This document shows, in pieces, positions 2,266 to 11,819 of a stretch of 34,061 nt of DNA (position 1 is its first letter; each line of letters begins with the position of its first letter). Source of the DNA: Ilumatobacteraceae bacterium. GTDB lineage: Bacteria > Actinomycetota > Acidimicrobiia > Acidimicrobiales > Ilumatobacteraceae. The stretch is taken from positions 1-34,061 of the forward strand of contig JAFMMJ010000017.1 in NCBI GenBank assembly GCA_017859785.1, given 5' to 3'. Position numbers and translations under genes: made by a program. The notes below the pieces were generated by a model. It worked only from the letters and a program-made list of their open reading frames with translations. It ran no database searches and was not told the DNA's origin.

Positions 2266-3030
2266 TCAGTTCGCCTCGGGCGACCAGCGGGGTGGGCGTC
2301 GCTCGGCGAAGGCGGCCATGCCTTCCGCGGCGTCGGGCGACGAGAAGAGCCGTTCGCTCAGGGCACGCATCTCAGCGAACGCGATGGTGCGATCGACGCC
2401 CGGCACCGAGGCGAGCAGCCGTTTCGTTGCCGCGACCGCATCGGGGGCTCCTCGGAGCACGCCAGCGCAGATCTCATCGACGGTTTCCACGACGTCGGAG
2501 GTCACGTGGGTGACCAGTCCAATGTCGCGTGCCTCAGCGGCGTCGAACCGCTCGCCGGTGAGCATGGCCGCGGCGATGCGCCCAGGCGCGACGCGGCGCA
2601 GGATCGGGACGGCGATGATCGCCGGGGCGACTCCGATGCGCACCTCAGTGAGGGCGAAGTCGACCGAGGTGTCGACCACGACGAGGTCGCAGGACGCCAT
2701 GAGACCGATTCCACCAGCGCGGACGGCACCCCGAACGGCGGCGATTGTCGGACGCTCGGTGTCCATGAGGCGTTCGAGAGCGGCGACCATCGGCCCAGAG
2801 TCCGGTGGACCCGCTGACCGTTCGCGCAGGTCGGCCCCCGAGCAGAACGCAGGTCCGGCGTGGGTGAGCACGATCGCTCTCGCGGCGGCCTCCTCGGCTT
2901 GATCAAGGGCGCGGTGGAGCTCCTCGAGGAGTTGGCGCGATAGGGCGTTTCGGTTGTGCTGGGAGTCGAGGGTGATCGTCGCGATCCCCCGGTCAATGTC
3001 GAGGCGCACCAATTCCGTGTCGTTCGCCAT
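2266..3030 (-). CDS. Enoyl-CoA hydratase/isomerase (crotonase) family protein
   Basis: Crotonase-fold protein of 254 aa, the normal size. It shows the N-terminal ATITLDSQHNRNALS strand-turn, the CoA and oxyanion segment FCSGADLRE, and the second oxyanion region RGAVRAGGIGLMASCD, followed by ALTEVRIGVAP. Aligned with mitochondrial enoyl-CoA hydratase, the second acid/base Glu is kept (LTEVRIG). The first (GGGCE in hydratases) is replaced by Gly (AGGIG), so classical hydration is doubtful. Isomerase, hydrolase or another crotonase chemistry is possible. It converges on the response regulator with a 3-bp gap and follows dinG by 33 bp. Its own leaderless promoter is likely (TACCGT, 6 nt, ATG). 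Confidence 0.88.
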   Translation of the reverse strand: MANDTELVRLDIDRGIATITLDSQHNRNALSRQLLEELHRALDQAEEAAARAIVLTHAGPAFCSGADLRERSAGPPDSGPMVAALERLMDTERPTIAAVRGAVRAGGIGLMASCDLVVVDTSVDFALTEVRIGVAPAIIAVPILRRVAPGRIAAAMLTGERFDAAEARDIGLVTHVTSDVVETVDEICAGVLRGAPDAVAATKRLLASVPGVDRTIAFAEMRALSERLFSSPDAAEGMAAFAERRPPRWSPEAN

Positions 3031-3036
3031 GGGCGC

Positions 3037-3042
3037 ACGGTA
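3037..3042 (-). promoter_or_regulatory. Leaderless -10 element of the crotonase gene
   Basis: On the minus strand TACCGT is followed by 6 nt (GCGCCC) and then ATG 3030. There is no Shine-Dalgarno sequence. The geometry matches the other TANNNT elements in this window. Confidence 0.55.
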
Positions 3043-3063
3043 GACGGATTGGCCGATCGGCGG

Positions 3064-4950
3064 TCAGTCGGTGATCGCCCGCAGGAACCGCTCCGCCTCG
3101 GCTCGGTCGCGGGTGCGTCGCATGGGCGGCAGGGCGGAGATGAGATCCCAGCGGTAGCCGGCGGTGCCGAGGCGGCGGTCGAGCACGGCGACCACCCCTC
3201 GGTCGGCGTCATTGCGGATGAGGCGGCCGCTGGCCTGGGCGAGCATGGTCGCGGCGCGCGGGAGGTCGATTTGGCCGAACGCGGCGCGGCCGAGTCGGTC
3301 GCGTCGGGCCGACAGCAGCGGGTCGTCGGGTCGCGGGAACGGGATCCGGTCGATCACAACGAGCGAGAGTGTGCGGCCGGGCACGTCGACCCCTTGGAAG
3401 AGTCCAGCAGTGGCAAAGAGACACGTCGACTCGTCCTCGGCGAAGGCGGCGACGAGGGCTGGTTTCGGGAGGTCACGCTGGGTGAGGATGGTGTGAGGGA
3501 CCTGTCCGGTGAGGGCGGCCGCGGCTTCATCCATTGCTGCCCAACTGGTGAAGAGCGCCAAGGTCCGGCCGCCGGCGGCGGTGATGAGCGCGGCGAGTTC
3601 CTCGTGGGTGGCGGCTCGGAACGCCGGGTCGTTCGGGGCGGGCAGGTGCATCGCGCAATAGAGGAGCGAGTTCTCGCCGTAATCGAAGGGGCTCCCAACG
3701 TCGATGACCTCTGGCTCGGGCAGGCCGATGCGTTCGGGAAGGGAGCGAGGCACGGTGGCTGAGGTGAGGATCGCGGTGCGGCGCGACCAGACACCGGCCG
3801 CCATGGTGGGCCCGACGTCGAGCGGGGCGATCTCGAGTGACGGAGATCCTGGGGCGCCCGAGACGAAGGCGACCGTGTCGGCCGACGGTGACAGCGTCCG
3901 GTCGATCATCTCGGTGGATCGGGTGAGGATGACCTGCGCGCGCAACCGACGTTGACGGGCGTCCTCGACGTCGGTCTCGATGGCGTTGACGACTGCCGAG
4001 GCCCGTTCGAGAGCGCCTCGGGCGGTGACGAGAGCCGAGGTGACATCGGAGGGGAGCGGGATCTCGAGTCGCTCGCCCCGGTGACCCTCGATCACTTCCC
4101 CGAAGGCGACTCCGGCGTCGGCGATCGAGGCGATGAGGGAGGGGTCGTCGATGATTCGGCGGACGGTCGATGCCACGGTCGCGAACCGGCCGGGGGAGAG
4201 GTCGACACCGACGGTGTCGCTCATGACGTCCTCAAGGACGTGGGCTTCGTCGAAGACGACGATGTCATGTTCGGGCAGGATCGCGTCATCGGCACCGACG
4301 TTCAGCCCGTAGAGGTGCGTGTTGACCACGACGACATCAGCGGTGGACGCGCGATCGCGGGCGACCTCGGCGAAGCAGGTCGAGCCGAGCGGGCAACGGT
4401 TCGCCCCTGGGCACTCGTCGGAGGTGACGCTCACCGCCCGCCATACCGCTGGGTCGGGGAGCCGGTCGAGTTCGGCTTGGTCGCCGGTCTCGCTCGACTC
4501 GGCCCAGTCGGCGAGCGCTGCGATCTCGTCGCGCCGGCCGTCGCCGAGCCCCTCAAGGGCGAGTTGATCGTCTCCGGAGGACACCTCTGCGAGCCGTTGG
4601 CGGCAGAGGTAGTTGGACCGCCCCTTCAGTACGGCCCACTCGAGTTCTCGGCCGAGAGGTTCGCGAAGATGCTCGGCGAGGAAGGGGAGATCCTTGGTAG
4701 CCAGCTGGTCCTGCAGGGCTTTCGTGGCGGTGGCCACCACGACGGTACGCCCGGCGCGCATCGCGGGGACGAGATAGGCGAGCGTCTTTCCCGTACCGGT
4801 TCCGGCTTGCACCACCAGATGCCGCCCCTCGGCGATGGCGCGGTCGACGGCGTCGGCCATCTCCCGTTGTCCTGGTCGTCGCTCAGCGGCGGGCAGGGCC
4901 GATGTGGCGATGTCGAGAAGCTCGCCGACGCCGAGCGGAGCGTCACTCAA
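3064..4950 (-). CDS. dinG: ATP-dependent DNA helicase DinG-like (XPD/Rad3 superfamily)
   Basis: Superfamily 2 iron-sulfur helicase, 628 aa, predicted to unwind DNA 5'-3' and act on R-loops, D-loops or stalled forks. Visible elements are the Q-motif-like RPGQREMADAV, Walker A AGTGTGKT (about residues 49-56), the four cysteines C116, C180, C186 and C192 expected to hold a 4Fe-4S cluster (YLCRQRL ... DECPGANRCPLGSTC), the DEAH box (234-237), and the C-terminal motifs VVIDRIPFPRPDDP and QASGRLIR. No N-terminal exonuclease domain is present. The start is TTG 4950, which overlaps the TGA stop of uppS by four bases, so translation is probably coupled. Starting at the next ATG would remove the Q-motif. 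The uppS linkage looks like compact packing rather than a shared pathway. Confidence 0.92.
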   Translation of the reverse strand: MSDAPLGVGELLDIATSALPAAERRPGQREMADAVDRAIAEGRHLVVQAGTGTGKTLAYLVPAMRAGRTVVVATATKALQDQLATKDLPFLAEHLREPLGRELEWAVLKGRSNYLCRQRLAEVSSGDDQLALEGLGDGRRDEIAALADWAESSETGDQAELDRLPDPAVWRAVSVTSDECPGANRCPLGSTCFAEVARDRASTADVVVVNTHLYGLNVGADDAILPEHDIVVFDEAHVLEDVMSDTVGVDLSPGRFATVASTVRRIIDDPSLIASIADAGVAFGEVIEGHRGERLEIPLPSDVTSALVTARGALERASAVVNAIETDVEDARQRRLRAQVILTRSTEMIDRTLSPSADTVAFVSGAPGSPSLEIAPLDVGPTMAAGVWSRRTAILTSATVPRSLPERIGLPEPEVIDVGSPFDYGENSLLYCAMHLPAPNDPAFRAATHEELAALITAAGGRTLALFTSWAAMDEAAAALTGQVPHTILTQRDLPKPALVAAFAEDESTCLFATAGLFQGVDVPGRTLSLVVIDRIPFPRPDDPLLSARRDRLGRAAFGQIDLPRAATMLAQASGRLIRNDADRGVVAVLDRRLGTAGYRWDLISALPPMRRTRDRAEAERFLRAITD

Positions 4951-5645
4951 CGCACGAGGTCCAGTGCGCGGTCGAGGTCGTCAGCGTCGAAGTCGGGCCA
5001 TGAGGCGTCAGTGAAATGGATGGCGGCCCCGGCGGCCTGCCACAGCAGGAAGTTCGACACCCTCATCTCGCCGCTGGTGCGCACGAGCACGTCGACGTCA
5101 GGCAGTTCGGGGTCGTACAGGTGTGCGGCGAGGCGGTCGGCATCGACGGTGCCCGTCGTCGATCGCAGCGTTCGGACGGCGGCCATCAGTTCGGCGCGGC
5201 CGCCGTAGTCGAAGGCGACGGTGAGGGTCATCCCGGTATTCGACGAGGTGTCGTTGATCGCTCGCCGAATCGCACGCTGCACGTATTTCGGCGTTCGGGC
5301 CTCCGGGCCGTCGAAGGGTCGTCCGATCCATCGAACCCGAACATTGTTCTCGTTGAGTTCCTCGAGCCGTCCGAAGAGCCGCTCATGGAGTCCGAGGATG
5401 TGCCGCACCTCGGCTCGTGGCCGCACCCAGTTCTCGGTCGAGAATCCGAACACGGTGAGCCAGCCGACTCCCCTCGCGACGCAGGCGCGCACAACCTCGG
5501 CGAGGTTCTCCTCCCCGGCGGTGTGCCCGGCGGTGCGAGGGAGCGAACGCTGCTCCGCCCAACGGCCGTTGCCGTCCATGATGCAGGCGACGTGGAGCGG
5601 CCGGTCGTGCCTGGGGTGCTCGAGAGGTGTGTGAGAGGTCGCCAC
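4947..5645 (-). CDS. uppS: Catalytic cis-prenyltransferase (undecaprenyl-diphosphate synthase) lacking the RxG tail
   Basis: Cis-prenyltransferase, 232 aa, condensing isopentenyl diphosphate onto an allylic diphosphate to make the polyprenyl carrier for peptidoglycan. All the substrate motifs are intact: MDGNGRWA with the metal-binding D24, AGH (H41), FSTEN with S69, E71, N72 and then R75, FDYGGR (145-150), RTSGE (189-193) and SNFLLWQ (197-203). Two features are abnormal. The usual YAELYF segment reads GAAIHF, so the conserved Glu is A208. The protein also ends at LDRALDLVR, about ten residues before the RRFGG (RxG) motif that normally finishes the active site. The stop is read directly, and neither other frame restores the tail. 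The gene is divergent from a paralogue that has exactly these missing pieces. GTG 5645 lies 9 nt after TAACGT. dinG is coupled downstream. Confidence 0.95.
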   Translation of the reverse strand: MATSHTPLEHPRHDRPLHVACIMDGNGRWAEQRSLPRTAGHTAGEENLAEVVRACVARGVGWLTVFGFSTENWVRPRAEVRHILGLHERLFGRLEELNENNVRVRWIGRPFDGPEARTPKYVQRAIRRAINDTSSNTGMTLTVAFDYGGRAELMAAVRTLRSTTGTVDADRLAAHLYDPELPDVDVLVRTSGEMRVSNFLLWQAAGAAIHFTDASWPDFDADDLDRALDLVR

Positions 5646-5654
5646 GGGAGAACC

Positions 5655-5660
5655 ACGTTA
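5655..5660 (-). promoter_or_regulatory. -10 element of uppS
   Basis: TAACGT on the minus strand lies 9 nt before GTG 5645 with no Shine-Dalgarno. It sits between the two divergent cis-prenyltransferase genes, so both promoters share under 45 bp and could interfere with or co-regulate each other. Confidence 0.45.
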
Positions 5661-5675
5661 GCGATGGCCTCGTGC

Positions 5676-5681
5676 GAGAAT
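5676..5681 (+). promoter_or_regulatory. Putative extended -10 of the uppS-like gene
   Basis: TGC plus GAGAAT (5673-5681) resembles an extended -10. It is 6 nt from GTG 5688, the same gap as at other leaderless starts here. The match is weaker than TAGCCT-type boxes, but it favours GTG 5688 over ATG 5664. Confidence 0.35.
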
Positions 5682-5687
5682 GGGCCG

Positions 5688-6281
5688 GTGACGTCTGGTG
5701 TGACGGAGGCGATCGGAGCGGCGGCGAGCGATCAGATGGGGCCTGCTCATGTCCTCGTCGTCGGTGGCTCGACCGGCGATTGGGATGCGCTCGGAGGTTC
5801 CGCTTGGGCGACGAGACGACGCTCGCTGGGTGAGCTCGCGGCGCAACTGGGTGTCGAGTGGTTGACGATTCGTCCGTACTCGGTCGAGGGTGTGGCGGGA
5901 CTCGCTGGCCGTCTCAAGTCCGCGAATGATGCAGCGCCGGTCACCGTCACCGTCGAGCCGGTTGGGTGTTGCACGGTGATCGTCGATCCAGCGGCGGATG
6001 GGCGCGAGCGGTTCGCGGCCGCCATGCGATCGCTCAGCGGCGATCCGGTGAACGAGGCCTCCGTGGCCGGTGTGCTCTATGAGCCGGCCGATTGCGAACC
6101 CGACCTCGTGCTCGTGCTCGGGCCCCCTACGCGCCTTCCGCCCTCTTTGGTGTGGGAACTCGCCTATGCCGAACTTGTCTTCATGGAGGTTCCCTGGGGT
6201 GATCTCAAGCCGGATCACCTGGCGGAGGCTGTGGCCGAGTACGCCGGCCGCCGGCGCCGCTTCGGCGGACTCGACGCGTGA
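5688..6281 (+). CDS. Degenerate cis-prenyltransferase paralogue, putative NgBR/Nus1-like accessory subunit
   Basis: A 197-aa protein recognisable as a UppS homologue by its fold-defining segments. AHVLVVGG aligns with HVACIMDG, GVEWLTIRPYSVEG with GVGWLTVFGFSTEN, and EPDLVLVLGPPTRLPPSLVWELAYAELVF with the RTSGE-SNFLLWQ-YAELYF block. Catalytic residues are gone: the Asp of MDGNGRWA, the AGH His, the Asn of STEN and the RTSGE Arg/Ser. The C-terminal YAE (E162) and GRRRRFGG (R191-F192-G193) are retained, precisely the features missing from the divergent uppS. It is also shorter than a full UppS, with the helical middle compressed. An alternative start is ATG 5664 (205 aa). Its stop overlaps recO by four bases, the slot uppS often occupies beside recO. 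I infer a non-catalytic partner subunit. A decaying duplicate is the alternative, but an open frame and selective retention argue against it. Confidence 0.78.
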   Translation: MTSGVTEAIGAAASDQMGPAHVLVVGGSTGDWDALGGSAWATRRRSLGELAAQLGVEWLTIRPYSVEGVAGLAGRLKSANDAAPVTVTVEPVGCCTVIVDPAADGRERFAAAMRSLSGDPVNEASVAGVLYEPADCEPDLVLVLGPPTRLPPSLVWELAYAELVFMEVPWGDLKPDHLAEAVAEYAGRRRRFGGLDA

Positions 6282-7006
6282 AGGAGCTGTATCGCGACGA
6301 GGCGGTGGTGTTGCGCACCTACCGCCTGCGAGAGTCCGACCGAATCGTCGTGCTGCTCACCAAGGAGCACGGGAAGGTTCGGGCGGTCGCGCACGGAGTC
6401 AGGAAGACCAACTCGAAGTTCGGGGGGCGGCTCGAGCCGATGAGTCATGTCTTGGTGCAGCTGCGTCGTGGCCGCGAGCTCGACACGGTCACCCAGGTCG
6501 AGTCGGTCGATCGGCTCGGGCCGATGCTCTCCTCCCTCGATCGGACCTCTCAGGGGATGGCGGCGATCGAGGCGGTCGAGCAGCTCGCCCTTGATCGCGA
6601 GCCGACCCCGCAGTTGTTCCGCTCGACGGTTGGGGTGCTGCGCACGATCGCGGAGCGTCCGTCTTCGATGAACGTGCCGGCGTTCTATTGGAAACTGCTC
6701 GCTGCCGAGGGGCTGAGCCCGATGCTCGATGCCTGTGTGCGATGCGAGGAGTCAGGGGATGGTGTCGAGATCGTTGCCTTCGACCTCGACGAGGGTGGGG
6801 TGCTCTGTCGCAACTGCCGTTCAGGGGTGTCGCTGTCACCGGCCGCGCTCTCACTGCTGCGCGCGGTGCTCGGCGGCCGACTCAACGAGGCGCTCGCCGC
6901 GCCGGAGAGCCCCGCCACTCACGAGGTCGGCTTGCTCGCGACGAGAGCGATGGAGCACCACCTCGAGCGACGCCTCAAGACGATCGCACTGTTCGAACGC
7001 CACTGA
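6278..7006 (+). CDS. recO: DNA repair protein RecO
   Basis: Recombination mediator, 242 aa, that with RecR loads RecA onto SSB-coated single-stranded DNA and anneals strands. The N-terminal OB fold begins YRDEAVVLRTYRLRESDRIV and continues with the basic AHGVRKTNSKFGGRLEP. The C-terminal helical domain has a zinc-binding pair of CxxC motifs (C153/C156, C177/C180), as in Gram-positive-type RecO. GTG 6278 overlaps the upstream TGA in the four-base GTGA arrangement, so it is translationally coupled to the uppS-like gene. glyS follows 21 bp downstream with its own promoter. This order preserves the recO-uppS and recO-glyS neighbourhood seen in other actinobacteria. Confidence 0.94.
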   Translation: MKELYRDEAVVLRTYRLRESDRIVVLLTKEHGKVRAVAHGVRKTNSKFGGRLEPMSHVLVQLRRGRELDTVTQVESVDRLGPMLSSLDRTSQGMAAIEAVEQLALDREPTPQLFRSTVGVLRTIAERPSSMNVPAFYWKLLAAEGLSPMLDACVRCEESGDGVEIVAFDLDEGGVLCRNCRSGVSLSPAALSLLRAVLGGRLNEALAAPESPATHEVGLLATRAMEHHLERRLKTIALFERH

Positions 7007-7013
7007 GCCTCCC

Positions 7014-7019
7014 TAGCCT
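7014..7019 (+). promoter_or_regulatory. Leaderless -10 element of glyS
   Basis: TAGCCT is followed by 8 nt and GTG 7028, without a Shine-Dalgarno sequence. It lies in the short gap after the recO stop. Confidence 0.6.
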
Positions 7020-7027
7020 GTGGGGTC

Positions 7028-8338
7028 GTGGCAGCGACCGAACTCGATCAGATCGTCAATCTCTGCAAGCGGCGCGGGTTCGTCTACCCGTCAGCAGAGA
7101 TCTACGGCGGTTTCCGGTCCACCTACGACTACGGCCCGCTCGGGTCGCTGATGCTCCGCAACGTGAAGGACGCCTGGGTGCGTTCGATGGTGCAGCAACG
7201 CGACGATGTCGTGCTCATCGACGCGGCCGTTCTCGGCCCCCCGCAGGTGTGGGAGGCCTCCGGGCATCTCAGCAACTTCAGTGATCCGCTCGTCGACTGC
7301 ACCGTGTGCCGCAACCGGTTCCGCCTCGACAAGCTCGACGACCCGAACGTGTGCCCGAGTTGCGGTGGAAGCGGCACCTTCACCGAAGCTCGCCAGTTCA
7401 ACCTGATGTTCAAGACCCAAGCCGGCCCGGTCGCTGATGCCGGCGCTGATGCCTATCTGCGCCCTGAGACCGCTCAGGGAATGTTCACCAACTTCTCGAA
7501 TGTGCTCCAGACGAGCCGTAAGCGCCCGCCGTTCGGTATCGCTCAAGTCGGTAAGTCGTTCCGCAACGAGATCACCCCGCAGAACTGGATCTTCCGGACC
7601 CGCGAGTTCGAGCAGATGGAACTCGAGTTCTTCGTTCCGCCCGCCGACGGCGCGTCCTGGTACGAGTACTGGTGTAACCATCGGATGGAGTGGTACCGCG
7701 AGCTCGGTATTCCCGACTCGATGCTTCGGTTGCGCCCCCACGCCGACGACGAGCTCTCGCACTATTCGACCGGCACCTCCGACGTTGAGTTCCTCTTTCC
7801 GTGGGGCTGGGATGAGCTCGAGGGGATCGCCCAACGCACCGACTACGACCTCACTCAGCACGCCGCCCATTCTGGCGAGCGCCTCGATTTCTTCGATCAG
7901 GCGACCGACGAGCGGTACGTGCCTTACGTGATCGAGCCAGCGGCCGGTGCCACACGCACGATGGCCGCGTTCCTCCTCGCTGCCTACGACGAGGAGGAGG
8001 TCAATGGGGAGACGCGCACCGTGCTGCGCCTTCATCCGCGTCTCGCCCCGTACAAGGTGGCGGTGCTCCCGCTCTCGAAGAAGGACACGCTCACCCCGCT
8101 CGCTCGCGAGATCAGGTCGATGATCGGGGAGCGCTACATGGTCGATTACGACGAGACTCAGGCGATCGGGCGTCGCTACCGGCGTCAAGATGAGATCGGC
8201 ACGCCGCTGTGCGTGACGGTCGATTTCGACTCGCTGGAGGACTCGGCGGTCACTGTCCGCGATCGCGACTCGATGGAGCAGGTTCGCGTTCCGATCGACT
8301 CGCTGATGTCGGAGCTCTCGACGCGACTCGGGATCTGA
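7028..8338 (+). CDS. glyS: Glycyl-tRNA synthetase, single-chain dimeric type
   Basis: Class II aminoacyl-tRNA synthetase charging tRNA-Gly, 436 aa, the alpha2 type rather than the alpha2beta2 type. It has the N-terminal YPSAEIYGGFRSTYDYGPLG, a zinc ribbon (C91, C94, C109, C112), RPETAQGMFTNF, class II motif 2 (FRNEITPQNWIFRTREFEQ, 178-196), motif 3 (EPAAGATRTM) and a C-terminal anticodon-binding domain starting near VAVLPLSKKD. GTG 7028 is the first residue of the family and lies 8 nt after TAGCCT. trpC follows after 17 nt and may be read through from here. Confidence 0.97.
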   Translation: MAATELDQIVNLCKRRGFVYPSAEIYGGFRSTYDYGPLGSLMLRNVKDAWVRSMVQQRDDVVLIDAAVLGPPQVWEASGHLSNFSDPLVDCTVCRNRFRLDKLDDPNVCPSCGGSGTFTEARQFNLMFKTQAGPVADAGADAYLRPETAQGMFTNFSNVLQTSRKRPPFGIAQVGKSFRNEITPQNWIFRTREFEQMELEFFVPPADGASWYEYWCNHRMEWYRELGIPDSMLRLRPHADDELSHYSTGTSDVEFLFPWGWDELEGIAQRTDYDLTQHAAHSGERLDFFDQATDERYVPYVIEPAAGATRTMAAFLLAAYDEEEVNGETRTVLRLHPRLAPYKVAVLPLSKKDTLTPLAREIRSMIGERYMVDYDETQAIGRRYRRQDEIGTPLCVTVDFDSLEDSAVTVRDRDSMEQVRVPIDSLMSELSTRLGI

Positions 8339-8355
8339 TTCGGGGCTCTCACTCG

Positions 8356-9144
8356 ATGGCGACCTACCTTGACCGCATCCTGGAGGCGCATCGAGCCGAG
8401 GCCGCGGCGGATAGGCGTTCGACGACCGAACTCCGACGCCGTTGCGACGACCTTCCGGCGGCGCGCGGCTTTCGTGAGGCGCTCGCCGCCGTCGACACGG
8501 AAGTCGACGGGGTTGGGGTGATCGCCGAGGTGAAGCGGCGATCGCCGTCGAAAGGCGCCCTGGCGCCCGATCTCGACCCGGCGGCCCTTGCGCGCAGCTA
8601 TGCCGATGGCGGGGCGACCTGCCTTTCGGTGCTCACCGATGTCGAGTTCTTCGGCGGGTCCCCCGATGATCTCGCTGCTGCCCGCTCCGCGGTCTCTTTG
8701 CCGGTGCTGCGGAAGGACTTCACTGTCGCTCCGAACGACGTGCTCGATGCCCGACTGATGGGAGCGGACTGTGTGCTGCTGATCGCGGCGGCGCTCGGGG
8801 TGGAGGAACTCGTCGATCTACACGGTCTCGCCCACGAGATCGGGCTGGACGTGCTCGTCGAGATCCACGATGAGACCGAACTCGAGCACGCGCTCGCGGC
8901 CGGCGCTGATCTCGTCGGGGTGAATCAGCGCGACCTCGTCACCTTCGAGGTCGACCAGGAGCGTGCGGTCCGGATGGCCTCGGTGATTCCGTCTGGCGTG
9001 GTCCGTGTCGCAGAGTCGGGGGTGCGGGGACGCGATGACGCGCTCGCGCTCGCTGAGGCCGGATACGCGGCGGTGCTCGTCGGGGAGTCGTTGGTCACCT
9101 CAGGTGACCCGGCCGCCGCCCTTCGCTCGATGCGTCGCGGGTGA
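8356..9144 (+). CDS. trpC: Indole-3-glycerol phosphate synthase
   Basis: Closes the ring of CdRP to indole-3-glycerol phosphate in tryptophan synthesis. The TIM barrel of 262 aa has the expected residues: AEVKRRSPSKG (K60), TCLSVLTDVEFFGG, LRKDF (K120), DVLVEIHDE (E169), GVNQRDL (N190), and VAESGV near the end. ATG 8356 is chosen because an in-frame ATG at 8209 would overlap glyS by 130 bp and add a non-homologous leader. No clear Shine-Dalgarno or TANNNT is seen, so co-transcription with glyS is likely. trpF starts 39 bp downstream. trpE, trpG and trpD are not in the window. Confidence 0.96.
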   Translation: MATYLDRILEAHRAEAAADRRSTTELRRRCDDLPAARGFREALAAVDTEVDGVGVIAEVKRRSPSKGALAPDLDPAALARSYADGGATCLSVLTDVEFFGGSPDDLAAARSAVSLPVLRKDFTVAPNDVLDARLMGADCVLLIAAALGVEELVDLHGLAHEIGLDVLVEIHDETELEHALAAGADLVGVNQRDLVTFEVDQERAVRMASVIPSGVVRVAESGVRGRDDALALAEAGYAAVLVGESLVTSGDPAAALRSMRRG

Positions 9145-9169
9145 GCGGTTAGAGCGGATCGCTCGCGAG

Positions 9170-9175
9170 TAGGTT
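9170..9175 (+). promoter_or_regulatory. Leaderless -10 element of trpF
   Basis: TAGGTT lies 8 nt before ATG 9184, with no Shine-Dalgarno. It suggests an internal promoter for trpFBA independent of trpC. Confidence 0.55.
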
Positions 9176-9183
9176 CAGCGTCG

Positions 9184-9864
9184 ATGTTCGTCAAGATCTG
9201 CGGGATCACCAACGAGGAGGACGCTCTTCTTGCGGTCGCCATGGGCGCCGATGCCGTCGGGTTCATTTTCGCGCCGTCACCGCGCCAGGTGGTAGCCAAA
9301 CATGTTTACGACATCACGCGCAGACTGCCTTCTGATGTGTTGACGGTCGGCGTTTTCCGGGACGAACTGCCGGCGCGGGTGCTCTCGATCGCCGATAGCG
9401 CCGGCGTGCGCGCTGTGCAGCTCCATGGCTCTGAGACCCCGGAGCAGGTGCGGGAGGTTGTGGAGAAGGGTCCTGGTCATGGGATCAGACACGTCATCAA
9501 GGCGTTCGGCGCTGACTCCGACCATCTGTCGCGGGCCGACCGCTTCCATACCGATCTCGTTCTGGTGGATGCCCCGGCACCGGGAAGCGGCAAGGTGTTC
9601 GACTGGCATCTCGCCTCCGAGGTGCCCGACTCGGTCCGCCTGATCCTGGCCGGGGGTCTCAACCCCGACAATGTGGCCGATGGCATCCGCGCGGTTCGGC
9701 CGTGGGGGGTCGATGTTTCTTCTGGAGTTGAGGCCGCTCCGGGTCGCAAGGATCCAGTGAAGGTGAGAAGATTCATCTCTAACGCGCGAGCGGCGGCCCC
9801 CCCAGACGAGATGTCTGACCTTCCTCCGCTCGAGGACGTGCCCTACGACTGGGAGGACGAATGA
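9184..9864 (+). CDS. trpF: Phosphoribosylanthranilate isomerase
   Basis: Amadori isomerase converting PRA to CdRP, the step before TrpC. The 226-aa TIM barrel has the catalytic pair C6 (VKICGIT) and D129 ([16 protein letters not shown]), the phosphate-binding [10 protein letters not shown] and GVDVSSGVE. It carries an acidic tail of about 25 residues ([18 protein letters not shown]) beyond the usual end. The ATG of trpB overlaps its stop by four bases, and GGAGG in this tail is the trpB ribosome site. Streptomycetes and mycobacteria use the bifunctional PriA instead of TrpF, so a dedicated trpF separates this genome from them. Confidence 0.96.
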
Positions 9865-11051
9865 CGATCACCGCGGACACACGATCGCTGATGGGCGAGC
9901 CCGATGATTCGGGTCGTTTCGGGGAGTTCGGCGGGCGATTCGTCCCCGAGACGCTCGTGCCGGCCTGCCAGGAGCTCGAGCGGGCCTTCCACGAGGCGTG
10001 GAACGATCCGGAATGGCGCGAGGAACTCGCCGCGGTGCTCCGCGACTACGCAGGTCGTCCGTCGGGCTTGACCGAGTGCCACCGGCTCGGTGAGGAACTT
10101 GGTCTCCGCCTGTTCCTGAAGCGCGAGGATCTCAACCACACCGGTTCGCACAAGATCAACAACGTCATCGGTCAGGCGCTTCTCGCCAAGCGGATGGGCA
10201 AGACCCGGCTCGTCGCCGAGACGGGGGCCGGCCAGCACGGTGTGGCGAGCGCCACCGCGGCCGCGCTCCTCGGAATGGAGTGCAAGGTCTACATGGGCGC
10301 TGTCGACGTTGAGCGCCAGGCGCTCAACGTCTTCCGGATGCGCCTGCTCGGAGCTGAGGTCGAGGCGGTGCATAGCGGCAGTCGCACCTTGAAAGACGCG
10401 GTCAACGAGGCGATGCGCGACTGGGTCGGGACGGTCGGCGACACCCATTACTGCCTGGGCTCCGTGATGGGCCCGCATCCGTATCCATTCATGGTGCGCC
10501 AGTTCCATCGGGTGATCGGTGAGGAGGCTCGGACGCAGTTCCTCGCGCTCGTCGGTGACGACCCCGATCTCGTCGTGGCCTGCGTGGGCGGAGGGTCCAA
10601 CGCCATCGGCATCTTCTCGGGATTCGTCGATACCACGAGCCGGCTCATCGGTGTCGAGCCAGCCGGCGGTGCGGCGGTGTCAAGAGGTGCACCCGGTGTC
10701 GTGCACGGCATGAGGAGTTTCCTGATGCAGGACGAGTACGGCCAGGTAGAGGAAGCCCACTCCATCTCAGCGGGCCTCGACTACCCGGGGGTCGGCCCCG
10801 AGCACTCGTATCTCTCGTCGATCGGCCGTGCGGAGTATCCGAACGTGACCGATTCCGAAGTGATCGAGGCGTTCCAGTTGCTCAGCCGTACCGAGGGGAT
10901 CATCCCGGCTCTCGAGCCGGCTCATGCCATCGCCTGGGTGGCCCGCGAGGCGGCTCAGCTGAAGGGTCAGACCGTGCTCGTCAACATGAGTGGACGTGGT
11001 GACAAGGACGTCGGCCAGATGATGGACGTGCTGAAGGACCAACTCGGCTGA
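9861..11051 (+). CDS. trpB: Tryptophan synthase beta chain
   Basis: PLP enzyme condensing indole with serine, 396 aa (TrpB1 length). The Schiff-base lysine is K98 in [18 protein letters not shown], the PLP phosphate loop GGGSNAIG and the C-terminal SGRGDKD are present. The start codon overlaps trpF (ATGA) and a GGAGG ribosome site precedes it, so it is coupled. trpA starts directly after the stop, as expected for partners of one alpha2beta2 complex with an indole tunnel. Confidence 0.98.
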
Positions 11052-11819
11052 GTGATGGGTCTCGAGTCACACCTGCGAGGGTGCAAGGAATCAGGTCGCA
11101 AGATTCTCGTCCCGTACATCACCGGCGGGTATCCGGGCTGGCAGGACGCCATTCGGGCGTGCGCGGCCAACGGCGCTGACGCGGTCGAGATCGGCATCCC
11201 GTTCTCCGATCCGGTCATGGACGGCCCGGTCATCCAGCAGGCCTCCCAGGCTGCCCTCGAGGCCGGCACGACGCCACAGTCGGTGCTCGAGGAGGTGCCG
11301 CATCTCGATGTCGACATCCCGCTCGCGGTCATGACGTATTTCAATGTCGTCCATCACGACGGGCCGGTCCGGTTCGCCAATCGGCTGGTCGCAGCCGGTG
11401 TGACGGGATGCATCCTCCCCGATCTGCCCCTCGAGGAGTCCGGTGACTGGTGCGAGGCCGCTGACGCCGCCGGGGTTGACACCGTGATGCTCGCCGCGCC
11501 AACCGCCCCGGATGATCGGCTTCCGAAGATCGTCGCGCGCTCGCGCGGCTTTGTGTACTCGGTCGGTCTGCTCGGCGTCACCGGGGAGCGCGACTCTCTC
11601 GCGGCGACGGCGACCGCGCTCGCCGAGCGGCTTCTCCCGTTGACCGATCTGCCGGTCCTTGTCGGGGTGGGAGTGTCGAACGCTGAGCAGGCAGCAACCG
11701 CGTGTCGGGTGGCCGATGGGGTCATTCAAGGCGCCTCGATGGTGCGCCGACTCATCGAGTCGGGTCCCGACGAGGTGGGCCGCTACGTCGCCGAGGTCCG
11801 AGCGGCCATCGACGCCTGA
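11052..11819 (+). CDS. trpA: Tryptophan synthase alpha chain
   Basis: Cleaves indole-3-glycerol phosphate to indole and glyceraldehyde 3-phosphate, 255 aa. The catalytic Glu and Asp are E46 (DAVEIGIPFSDP) and D57 (VMDGPVIQ), and LVGVGVSN forms the phosphate site. The GTG at 11052 follows the trpB stop with no gap. ATG 11055 is the next codon and equally possible, changing only one residue. A weak AAGGA sits 13 nt upstream inside trpB. Confidence 0.97.
   Translation: MMGLESHLRGCKESGRKILVPYITGGYPGWQDAIRACAANGADAVEIGIPFSDPVMDGPVIQQASQAALEAGTTPQSVLEEVPHLDVDIPLAVMTYFNVVHHDGPVRFANRLVAAGVTGCILPDLPLEESGDWCEAADAAGVDTVMLAAPTAPDDRLPKIVARSRGFVYSVGLLGVTGERDSLAATATALAERLLPLTDLPVLVGVGVSNAEQAATACRVADGVIQGASMVRRLIESGPDEVGRYVAEVRAAIDA

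Follow-up and report, generated by a model that had tools for sequence, protein, structure and literature searches.

The question raised by this locus is whether the active site of a bacterial cis-prenyltransferase of the UppS type can be divided between two genes. The window analysed is the whole 34,061 nt stretch of an Ilumatobacteraceae bacterium (assembly GCA_017859785.1, contig JAFMMJ010000017.1, positions 1–34,061, forward strand). Two divergent open reading frames, here termed A and B, lie where the initial annotation had placed them, and both products pass the Pfam cut-off for PF01255. A is a catalytic UppS homologue that ends before the C-terminal RxG motif, and B is a non-catalytic homologue that retains this motif. 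It is very likely that A and B form an obligate heteromeric cis-prenyltransferase, the only UppS detected in the cell, making the polyprenyl diphosphate (most likely C50–C55) for the cell-wall lipid carrier. It is also likely that a bacterial UppS has here become an obligate two-gene heteromer through complementary loss in a two-subunit site, repeating the DHDDS–NgBR design independently on one branch near the base of the family, with nearby genera that carry the unsplit enzyme still living. The interpretation offered in the initial annotation is supported; from sequence, we infer that A associates with B, that the heteromer is obligate, and what its activity and product would be.

A (232 aa) matches PF01255 with 224.4 bits over profile positions 1–208 of 219, above the Pfam cut-off of 27, and combines this catalytic-domain match with the Asp of MDGNGR and with RxSGE, as expected of a family member. 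B (197 aa if translation starts at the GTG at 5688) matches positions 145–219 of 219 with 46.6 bits, again above the curated cut-off of 27, and has a cis-prenyltransferase fold. The AlphaFold2 model of A (predicted local distance difference test score, pLDDT, 89.9; predicted template modelling score, pTM, 0.86) matches solved UppS structures in a fold search with VIA Z scores of up to 25.6, and the Escherichia coli UppS rows align with it only to residue 237, i.e. up to the tail. The model of B (pLDDT 88.8, pTM 0.84) matches cis-prenyltransferases with VIA Z scores of up to 11.9, with 192 chains at Z of at least 8; the match to 5hc8 (VIA Z 11.9) covers 155 aligned residues with a root mean square deviation of 3.5. 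NgBR did not appear among the rows listed when the fold of B was searched, but this does not speak against a relationship. In a search with a profile built from 47 B proteins, E. coli UppS is recovered at 3.1e-22 and human NUS1/NgBR at 3.9e-6, the latter aligning to the NUS1 C terminus. Compared with E. coli UppS, B also lacks a segment after the FSTEN position, which probably holds helices of the substrate tunnel.

The two proteins retain complementary parts of the UppS active site. As the initial annotation had described, A carries MDGNGRWA, FSTEN (here FSTENW) and RTSGE, has Ala (A208) at the position of the YxE Glu and ends before RxG; B is without the catalytic motifs, including the Asp, Asn and Arg of MDGNGR, and keeps Y160 and E162 of YAE together with RRRRFGG (R188–G194). 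The catalytic Asp of A, D24, is presumably D26 of E. coli UppS. The pattern was followed across an alignment of 83 A proteins, 81 B proteins and 55 full-length UppS, with E. coli UppS numbering and columns set on locus L003. The A and B counts come from fetched loci, which cover a part of the family genomes (78 loci with both, five with A only and three with B only). The full-length UppS come from 51 of 58 loci outside the family and from four family genomes (G408, G238, G485 and G399); a motif filter removed the seven loci of a second UppS type, in which DGHRR replaces DGNGR.

Asp26 is Asp in all 83 A proteins and all 55 UppS, and Gly in all 81 B proteins. Ten further positions (Asn28, Arg30, Ser71, Glu73, Asn74, Arg77, Arg194, Glu198, Arg200 and Ser202) are retained throughout A (83/83) and the full-length UppS (55/55) but mostly replaced in B, where Arg200 remains in 34 proteins, Ser71 in 20 and Glu73 in seven. 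At the C-terminal end, the Tyr and Glu of YxE are present in 55/55 UppS and in all 80 readable B proteins (80 and not 81, because the B of genome G407 is cut by a stop codon); among the 83 A proteins the Tyr is never found and the Glu is found in five, all from genus g3. Loss of this Glu, which had been read as a property of A, holds for the A of the window and for 78 of the 83, but not for all. The tail RxRRFGG is present in 80/80 readable B and 0/83 A, and of the 15 residues that are invariant over 47 B sequences six lie in it. Among the full-length UppS the Gly of RxG is present in all 54 that are readable, with Arg in 50 and Thr in four; four UppS of the small-genome family f29 (L106, L109, L110 and L112) end RTYG, with Thr at the position of the RxG Arg.

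No chain among the 83 A and 81 B proteins holds both the catalytic motifs and RxG, as a homodimeric UppS would. The locus instead has the sequence pattern of a heteromeric (DHDDS/NgBR-type) enzyme, a catalytic subunit without RxG and a non-catalytic subunit with it. An A protein with an RxG tail was found neither among the 83 aligned nor among additional A proteins retrieved because their profile matches extended furthest (to 212–217, in some cases through a stop codon). The A at L122 has RQG near its end, which does not align with the RxG motif and is a chance occurrence. The reciprocal pattern is more than chance, because, save for the five Glu residues in A, it holds in 83 A proteins and 80 readable B tails, and because B far outscores any other UppS relative in the phylum sample.

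Their own genome (1.96 Mb, 98.8% complete) yields no PF01255 match besides A and B; it also has two PF00953 (MraY/WecA family) matches. Enzymes of the MraY/WecA family use a polyprenyl phosphate carrier, so this genome should need one. The family coded f1 (221 genomes) is most likely Ilumatobacteraceae, since Ilumatobacter nonamiensis and numerous Ilumatobacteraceae bins are among the named relatives found with B (best 80 of 349 stretches). A B of the Ilumatobacteraceae type is also carried by two bins titled Bifidobacterium breve (L236 and L242); this organism label looks wrong.

With B as query, a match at E 0.01 was obtained in 205 of the 221 family genomes, a count that includes weak matches to A or to other UppS. 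PF01255 is matched in 208/221, and in 79/79 of those of good quality. Among the matches listed, 192 family genomes have at least two, 16 have one and 13 have none; A matches end at profile positions 208–217 of 219 unless a contig end intervenes, and matches spanning 1–219 occur only in G408, G238, G485 and G399, each as the sole PF01255 match of its genome. G399, with a full-length UppS in an otherwise A+B genus, is uninformative as an exception because its recO was not found, so that the A–B locus may be missing. G333 has one listed PF01255 match, yet both A and B were found there in other searches, and in G400 the match is no more than a 49-position fragment where the contig ends. The other ten genomes with a single match have A without B or B without A, in eight cases cut off at a contig end: A alone in G452 (the contig ends 23 bases away), G315 (52 bases) and G367, G445 and G357 (A starting 1–30 bases from the contig end), and B alone in G027, G320 and G325. 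G469 and G300 are the exceptions.

The nearest genera, g157 and g13, are without A and B, and three of their four genomes have one full-length UppS; these genera, which lack B, also have no RxG-less A. The co-occurrence that the initial annotation had named as a check is seen family-wide, with small exceptions, and no RxG-bearing A was found beside B among the A proteins examined. When the B profile was run on a 246-genome sample of the phylum, nine family members matched at 9e-54 to 2e-73; among the matches listed no B was found outside the family, and the next-best match (5.6e-29) was a frame of a UppS from the same order. The same split was not found in 32 re-searched genomes from other families of the class, where matches span 1–219 or are fragments, several at contig ends; the A pattern sought there was a match ending near 209 with B beside it, and contig-end status was checked for some of the fragments. 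Among the matches listed, PF01255 is absent from 12 of 296 genomes of the class sample.

B is under purifying selection. Its ratio of non-synonymous to synonymous substitution rates (dN/dS) is 0.03–0.31 in 14 of 15 pairs, the remaining pair being saturated; the values for A are 0.03–0.15, and B evolves faster than A. When signs of decay, which the initial annotation had named as a point against its reading, were looked for among the 81 copies of B, an in-frame stop was found in that of G407 only.

Published structures indicate how such a pair could work. PMC6450523 and PMC7573591 show the RxG Arg acting across the dimer, in agreement with what the initial annotation had stated of homodimers. 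In the Mycobacterium tuberculosis decaprenyl diphosphate synthase, Arg292*, which is the Arg of the RxG motif in one subunit, is described as contacting the catalytic Asp and the substrate of the other (PMC6450523), and in Methanosarcina mazei MM_0014 the C terminus of one subunit covers the cavity of the other (PMC8131916). In human DHDDS–NgBR, the tail of NgBR reaches through the interface into the active site of DHDDS, and a ~400-fold higher turnover number (kcat) is reported for the complex than for DHDDS alone (PMC7573591).

The ancestral homodimeric UppS may have been duplicated head to head. As a homodimer has two composite sites, its duplicates could lose complementary halves, one copy the tail and the other the catalytic residues, with one complete site remaining; the residues retained and lost in the two proteins fit this course. 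A would pair with B through the usual cis-prenyltransferase dimer interface, and the C-terminal Arg and Gly of B would reach into the active site of A and hold isopentenyl diphosphate and Mg2+, like the counter-subunit Arg in homodimers and NgBR for DHDDS. If the YxE Glu also acted in trans, this would explain why it follows the tail.

The arrangement of the locus bears on the origin of the pair. Its features are collected in Table 1, in which the name of the DinG-like helicase gene is assumed from its family and that of the glyS-like gene is likewise our assumption.

Table 1. Coordinates of A, B, their motifs and the adjoining genes in the window
Feature	Position	Strand	Basis or remark
Predicted subunit A, catalytic cis-prenyltransferase (UppS) without C-terminal RxG tail	4947..5645	-	PF01255 profile, AlphaFold2 fold, motifs
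A motif MDGNGRW (catalytic Asp, D24)	5559..5579	-	Asp in 83/83 A proteins
A motif FSTEN	5430..5444	-	Identical in 83/83 A proteins
A motif RTSGE	5067..5081	-	Identical in 83/83 A proteins
A208, position of the YxE Glu in full-length UppS	5022..5024	-	Glu in 5/83 A versus 55/55 UppS
A–B divergent gap	5646..5687	.	42 bp given B start GTG 5688; longer given ATG 5736
Predicted subunit B, non-catalytic homologue keeping C-terminal part and RxG tail	5688..6281	+	Profile, fold; real start may be ATG 5736
B motif YAE (Y160–E162)	6165..6173	+	Tyr and Glu in 80/80 readable B
B tail RRRRFGG (R188–G194), the RxG tail	6249..6269	+	R188, R190, R191, F192, G193 and G194 in 80/80 readable B
recO (context)	6278..7006	+	Adjoins single uppS in related families
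DinG-like helicase gene (context)	3064..4950	-	Counterpart found by similarity in related loci
glyS-like gene, downstream (context)	7028..8338	+	

In the sequence TTGA, the stop codon of A and the TTG called as start of the downstream DinG-like gene overlap. The profile match of B begins at an in-frame ATG (5736), and the start of B is therefore uncertain; the initial annotation's gap of under 45 bp stands if B starts at the GTG and becomes about 90 bp if it starts at the ATG. A and B are divergent in all 78 loci that hold both, with a median core-to-core distance of 164 (range 77–752). The gap is ~2 kb in G317 and G468, and in G387 (L246, ~2269–11521) A and B lie ~9 kb apart, with DinG–A and B–recO intact on either side and both genes kept.

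Outside the family, recO adjoins uppS in 29 of 30 loci (L003–L032), the 30th being cut by a contig end, and the DinG-like gene lies on the other side of uppS in 13 of the 30. The order in G408 is DinG(−), uppS(+), recO(+), and that in the A+B family is DinG(−), A(−), B(+), recO(+). By these orders, B holds the uppS slot, and A stands next to DinG as an inverted copy. A different arrangement is found in certain other families of the class, where recO and glyS flank uppS on opposite sides (L099–L113). In the g13 genomes G238, G485 and G486, DinG is adjacent to recO with neither A nor B between; G238 and G485 have one full-length UppS elsewhere, and none was found in G486 among the PF01255 matches listed. 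A divergent full-length UppS (RTSSE, FPWH) is common to two g13 genomes and G399 (L064, L065 and L066), and it groups in the tree with the UppS of the small-genome family (L106; support 85). This suggests transfer, and replacement of the A–B pair in g13.

In a tree of 96 rows, A forms one clade and B another (Shimodaira–Hasegawa-like approximate likelihood ratio test support 99 and 100); the position of B relative to A and UppS is unsettled because B branches are long. In the recO tree the A+B genomes form one clade (91/87), with g13 and G408 outside it. The simplest reading is a single origin of the pair after the split from g13/G408.

Several observations weigh against an obligate heteromer that arose once. 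MM_0014 is described as active though its family lacks RXG, and it crystallizes as a homodimer (PMC8131916); weak activity is reported for DHDDS alone (PMC6921004). A missing RxG therefore does not prove need of a partner. The YxE Glu is retained in five of the 83 A proteins, and no support for its acting across the dimer was found in the literature searched. The members of genus g13 manage without A and B. In G469 the contig runs on for 871 bases past A without a B, and in G300 (L250; genome 75% complete) it extends ~1.2 kb past B without an A. The interrupted B of G407 (L137), one of 81 copies, has an in-frame TAG at ~1031–1033 beside an open A and an open recO; the TAG is either a sequencing error or a recent loss, which cannot be distinguished. 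In the recO tree, L029, which belongs to a different family of the order, groups with g13 and G408.

Some of these points would suit an A that is a self-sufficient homodimer without RxG, with B a paralogue that has another job, e.g. as regulator of A or partner of a neighbouring gene product. The active RxG-less homodimer MM_0014 is a precedent (PMC8131916), B is the immediate upstream neighbour of recO in a conserved cluster, and B is the faster evolving of the two. However, B is most conserved in the very elements missing from A (YxE and RxRRFGG, in 80/80 readable tails), A and B are jointly absent from the nearest genera, and the only RxG-less A genes seen without B are copies truncated near contig ends and that of G469. 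These findings make a homodimer of A with B in another role unlikely. Less likely still, and improbable on the present evidence, is a heteromer of A and B with a product other than the main cell-wall carrier, e.g. a short Z-prenyl diphosphate or a longer glycosyl carrier. Cis-prenyltransferase products are reported to range from C10 up, and eukaryotic heteromers make long chains (PMC7839719, PMC7573591). No further PF01255 gene was found in the genome of the window, however, and the family exceptions carry one full-length UppS that replaces the pair. A reading of B as a leftover of the old uppS now in decay, and of A as an ordinary enzyme whose end has simply been lost, is already disfavoured and scarcely credible: B does occupy the former uppS position, is short, evolves fast and has a stop in one of 81 copies, but it is under purifying selection with 15 invariant residues, six in the tail, and the tail loss recurs in all 83 A proteins examined.

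UppS is studied as a drug target. If A and B do form the proposed heteromer, an essential bacterial enzyme would be split into a catalytic and a tail-donating subunit, and the DHDDS–NgBR design would be seen to arise repeatably when an enzyme with an active site completed in trans is duplicated. As the unsplit enzyme occurs in nearby genera, and as both A and B are small, direct tests of why heteromeric cis-prenyltransferases evolve become feasible.

A review describes homodimers in bacteria and plants and heteromers in eukaryotes, with bacterial UppS among the homodimers (PMC7839719). A bacterial heteromeric cis-prenyltransferase was not found in the open literature searched, from which subscription papers were largely absent, so that a published case is possible; the same literature yielded no paper on Ilumatobacter and undecaprenyl. 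The initial annotation, aware of no such bacterial system, agrees with this, but an archaeal heteromer, M. mazei MM_0618/MM_1083, is already described (PMC8131916).

The eukaryotic DHDDS–NgBR, Rer2–Nus1 and CPT–LEW1 complexes resemble A–B in combining a catalytic with a non-catalytic subunit of the cis-prenyltransferase fold, the RxG tail of the latter completing the site, according to passages in PMC7573591 and PMC13247534; in yeast Nus1, Asn replaces the RxG Arg (PMC7573591). In contrast to these complexes, the genes for A and B are a divergent pair, A has no C-terminal extension, and the B profile is nearer to bacterial UppS (3.1e-22) than to NUS1 (3.9e-6), its best non-B matches in the phylum sample, among those listed, being UppS of the same order. 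An origin of B independent of NgBR/Nus1 is likely, because B is far closer to bacterial UppS than to NUS1 and sits in the uppS position. With the homodimeric bacterial UppS and the M. tuberculosis decaprenyl diphosphate synthase, in which the RxG Arg acts in trans (Arg292*, PMC6450523), A shares the UppS fold (Z up to 25.6) and all substrate motifs. Unlike in these enzymes, neither gene of the pair has the catalytic residues and the RxG tail together.

HexA/HexB and HepS/HepT belong to the trans family, whose fold and mechanism are unrelated to those of the cis-prenyltransferases. Like A–B, they are bacterial prenyl diphosphate synthases of two different subunits (PMC7839719). Like A–B, M. mazei MM_0618/MM_1083 is a cis-prenyltransferase of two paralogues in a prokaryote and serves a glycosyl carrier (Emi 2019, cited by PMC8131916); compared here by description only, it differs in being archaeal and in its C45–50 product (PMC8131916). 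What would be new in the Ilumatobacteraceae pair is an independent bacterial origin of the heteromeric cis-prenyltransferase design, which is known already in eukaryotes and Methanosarcina.

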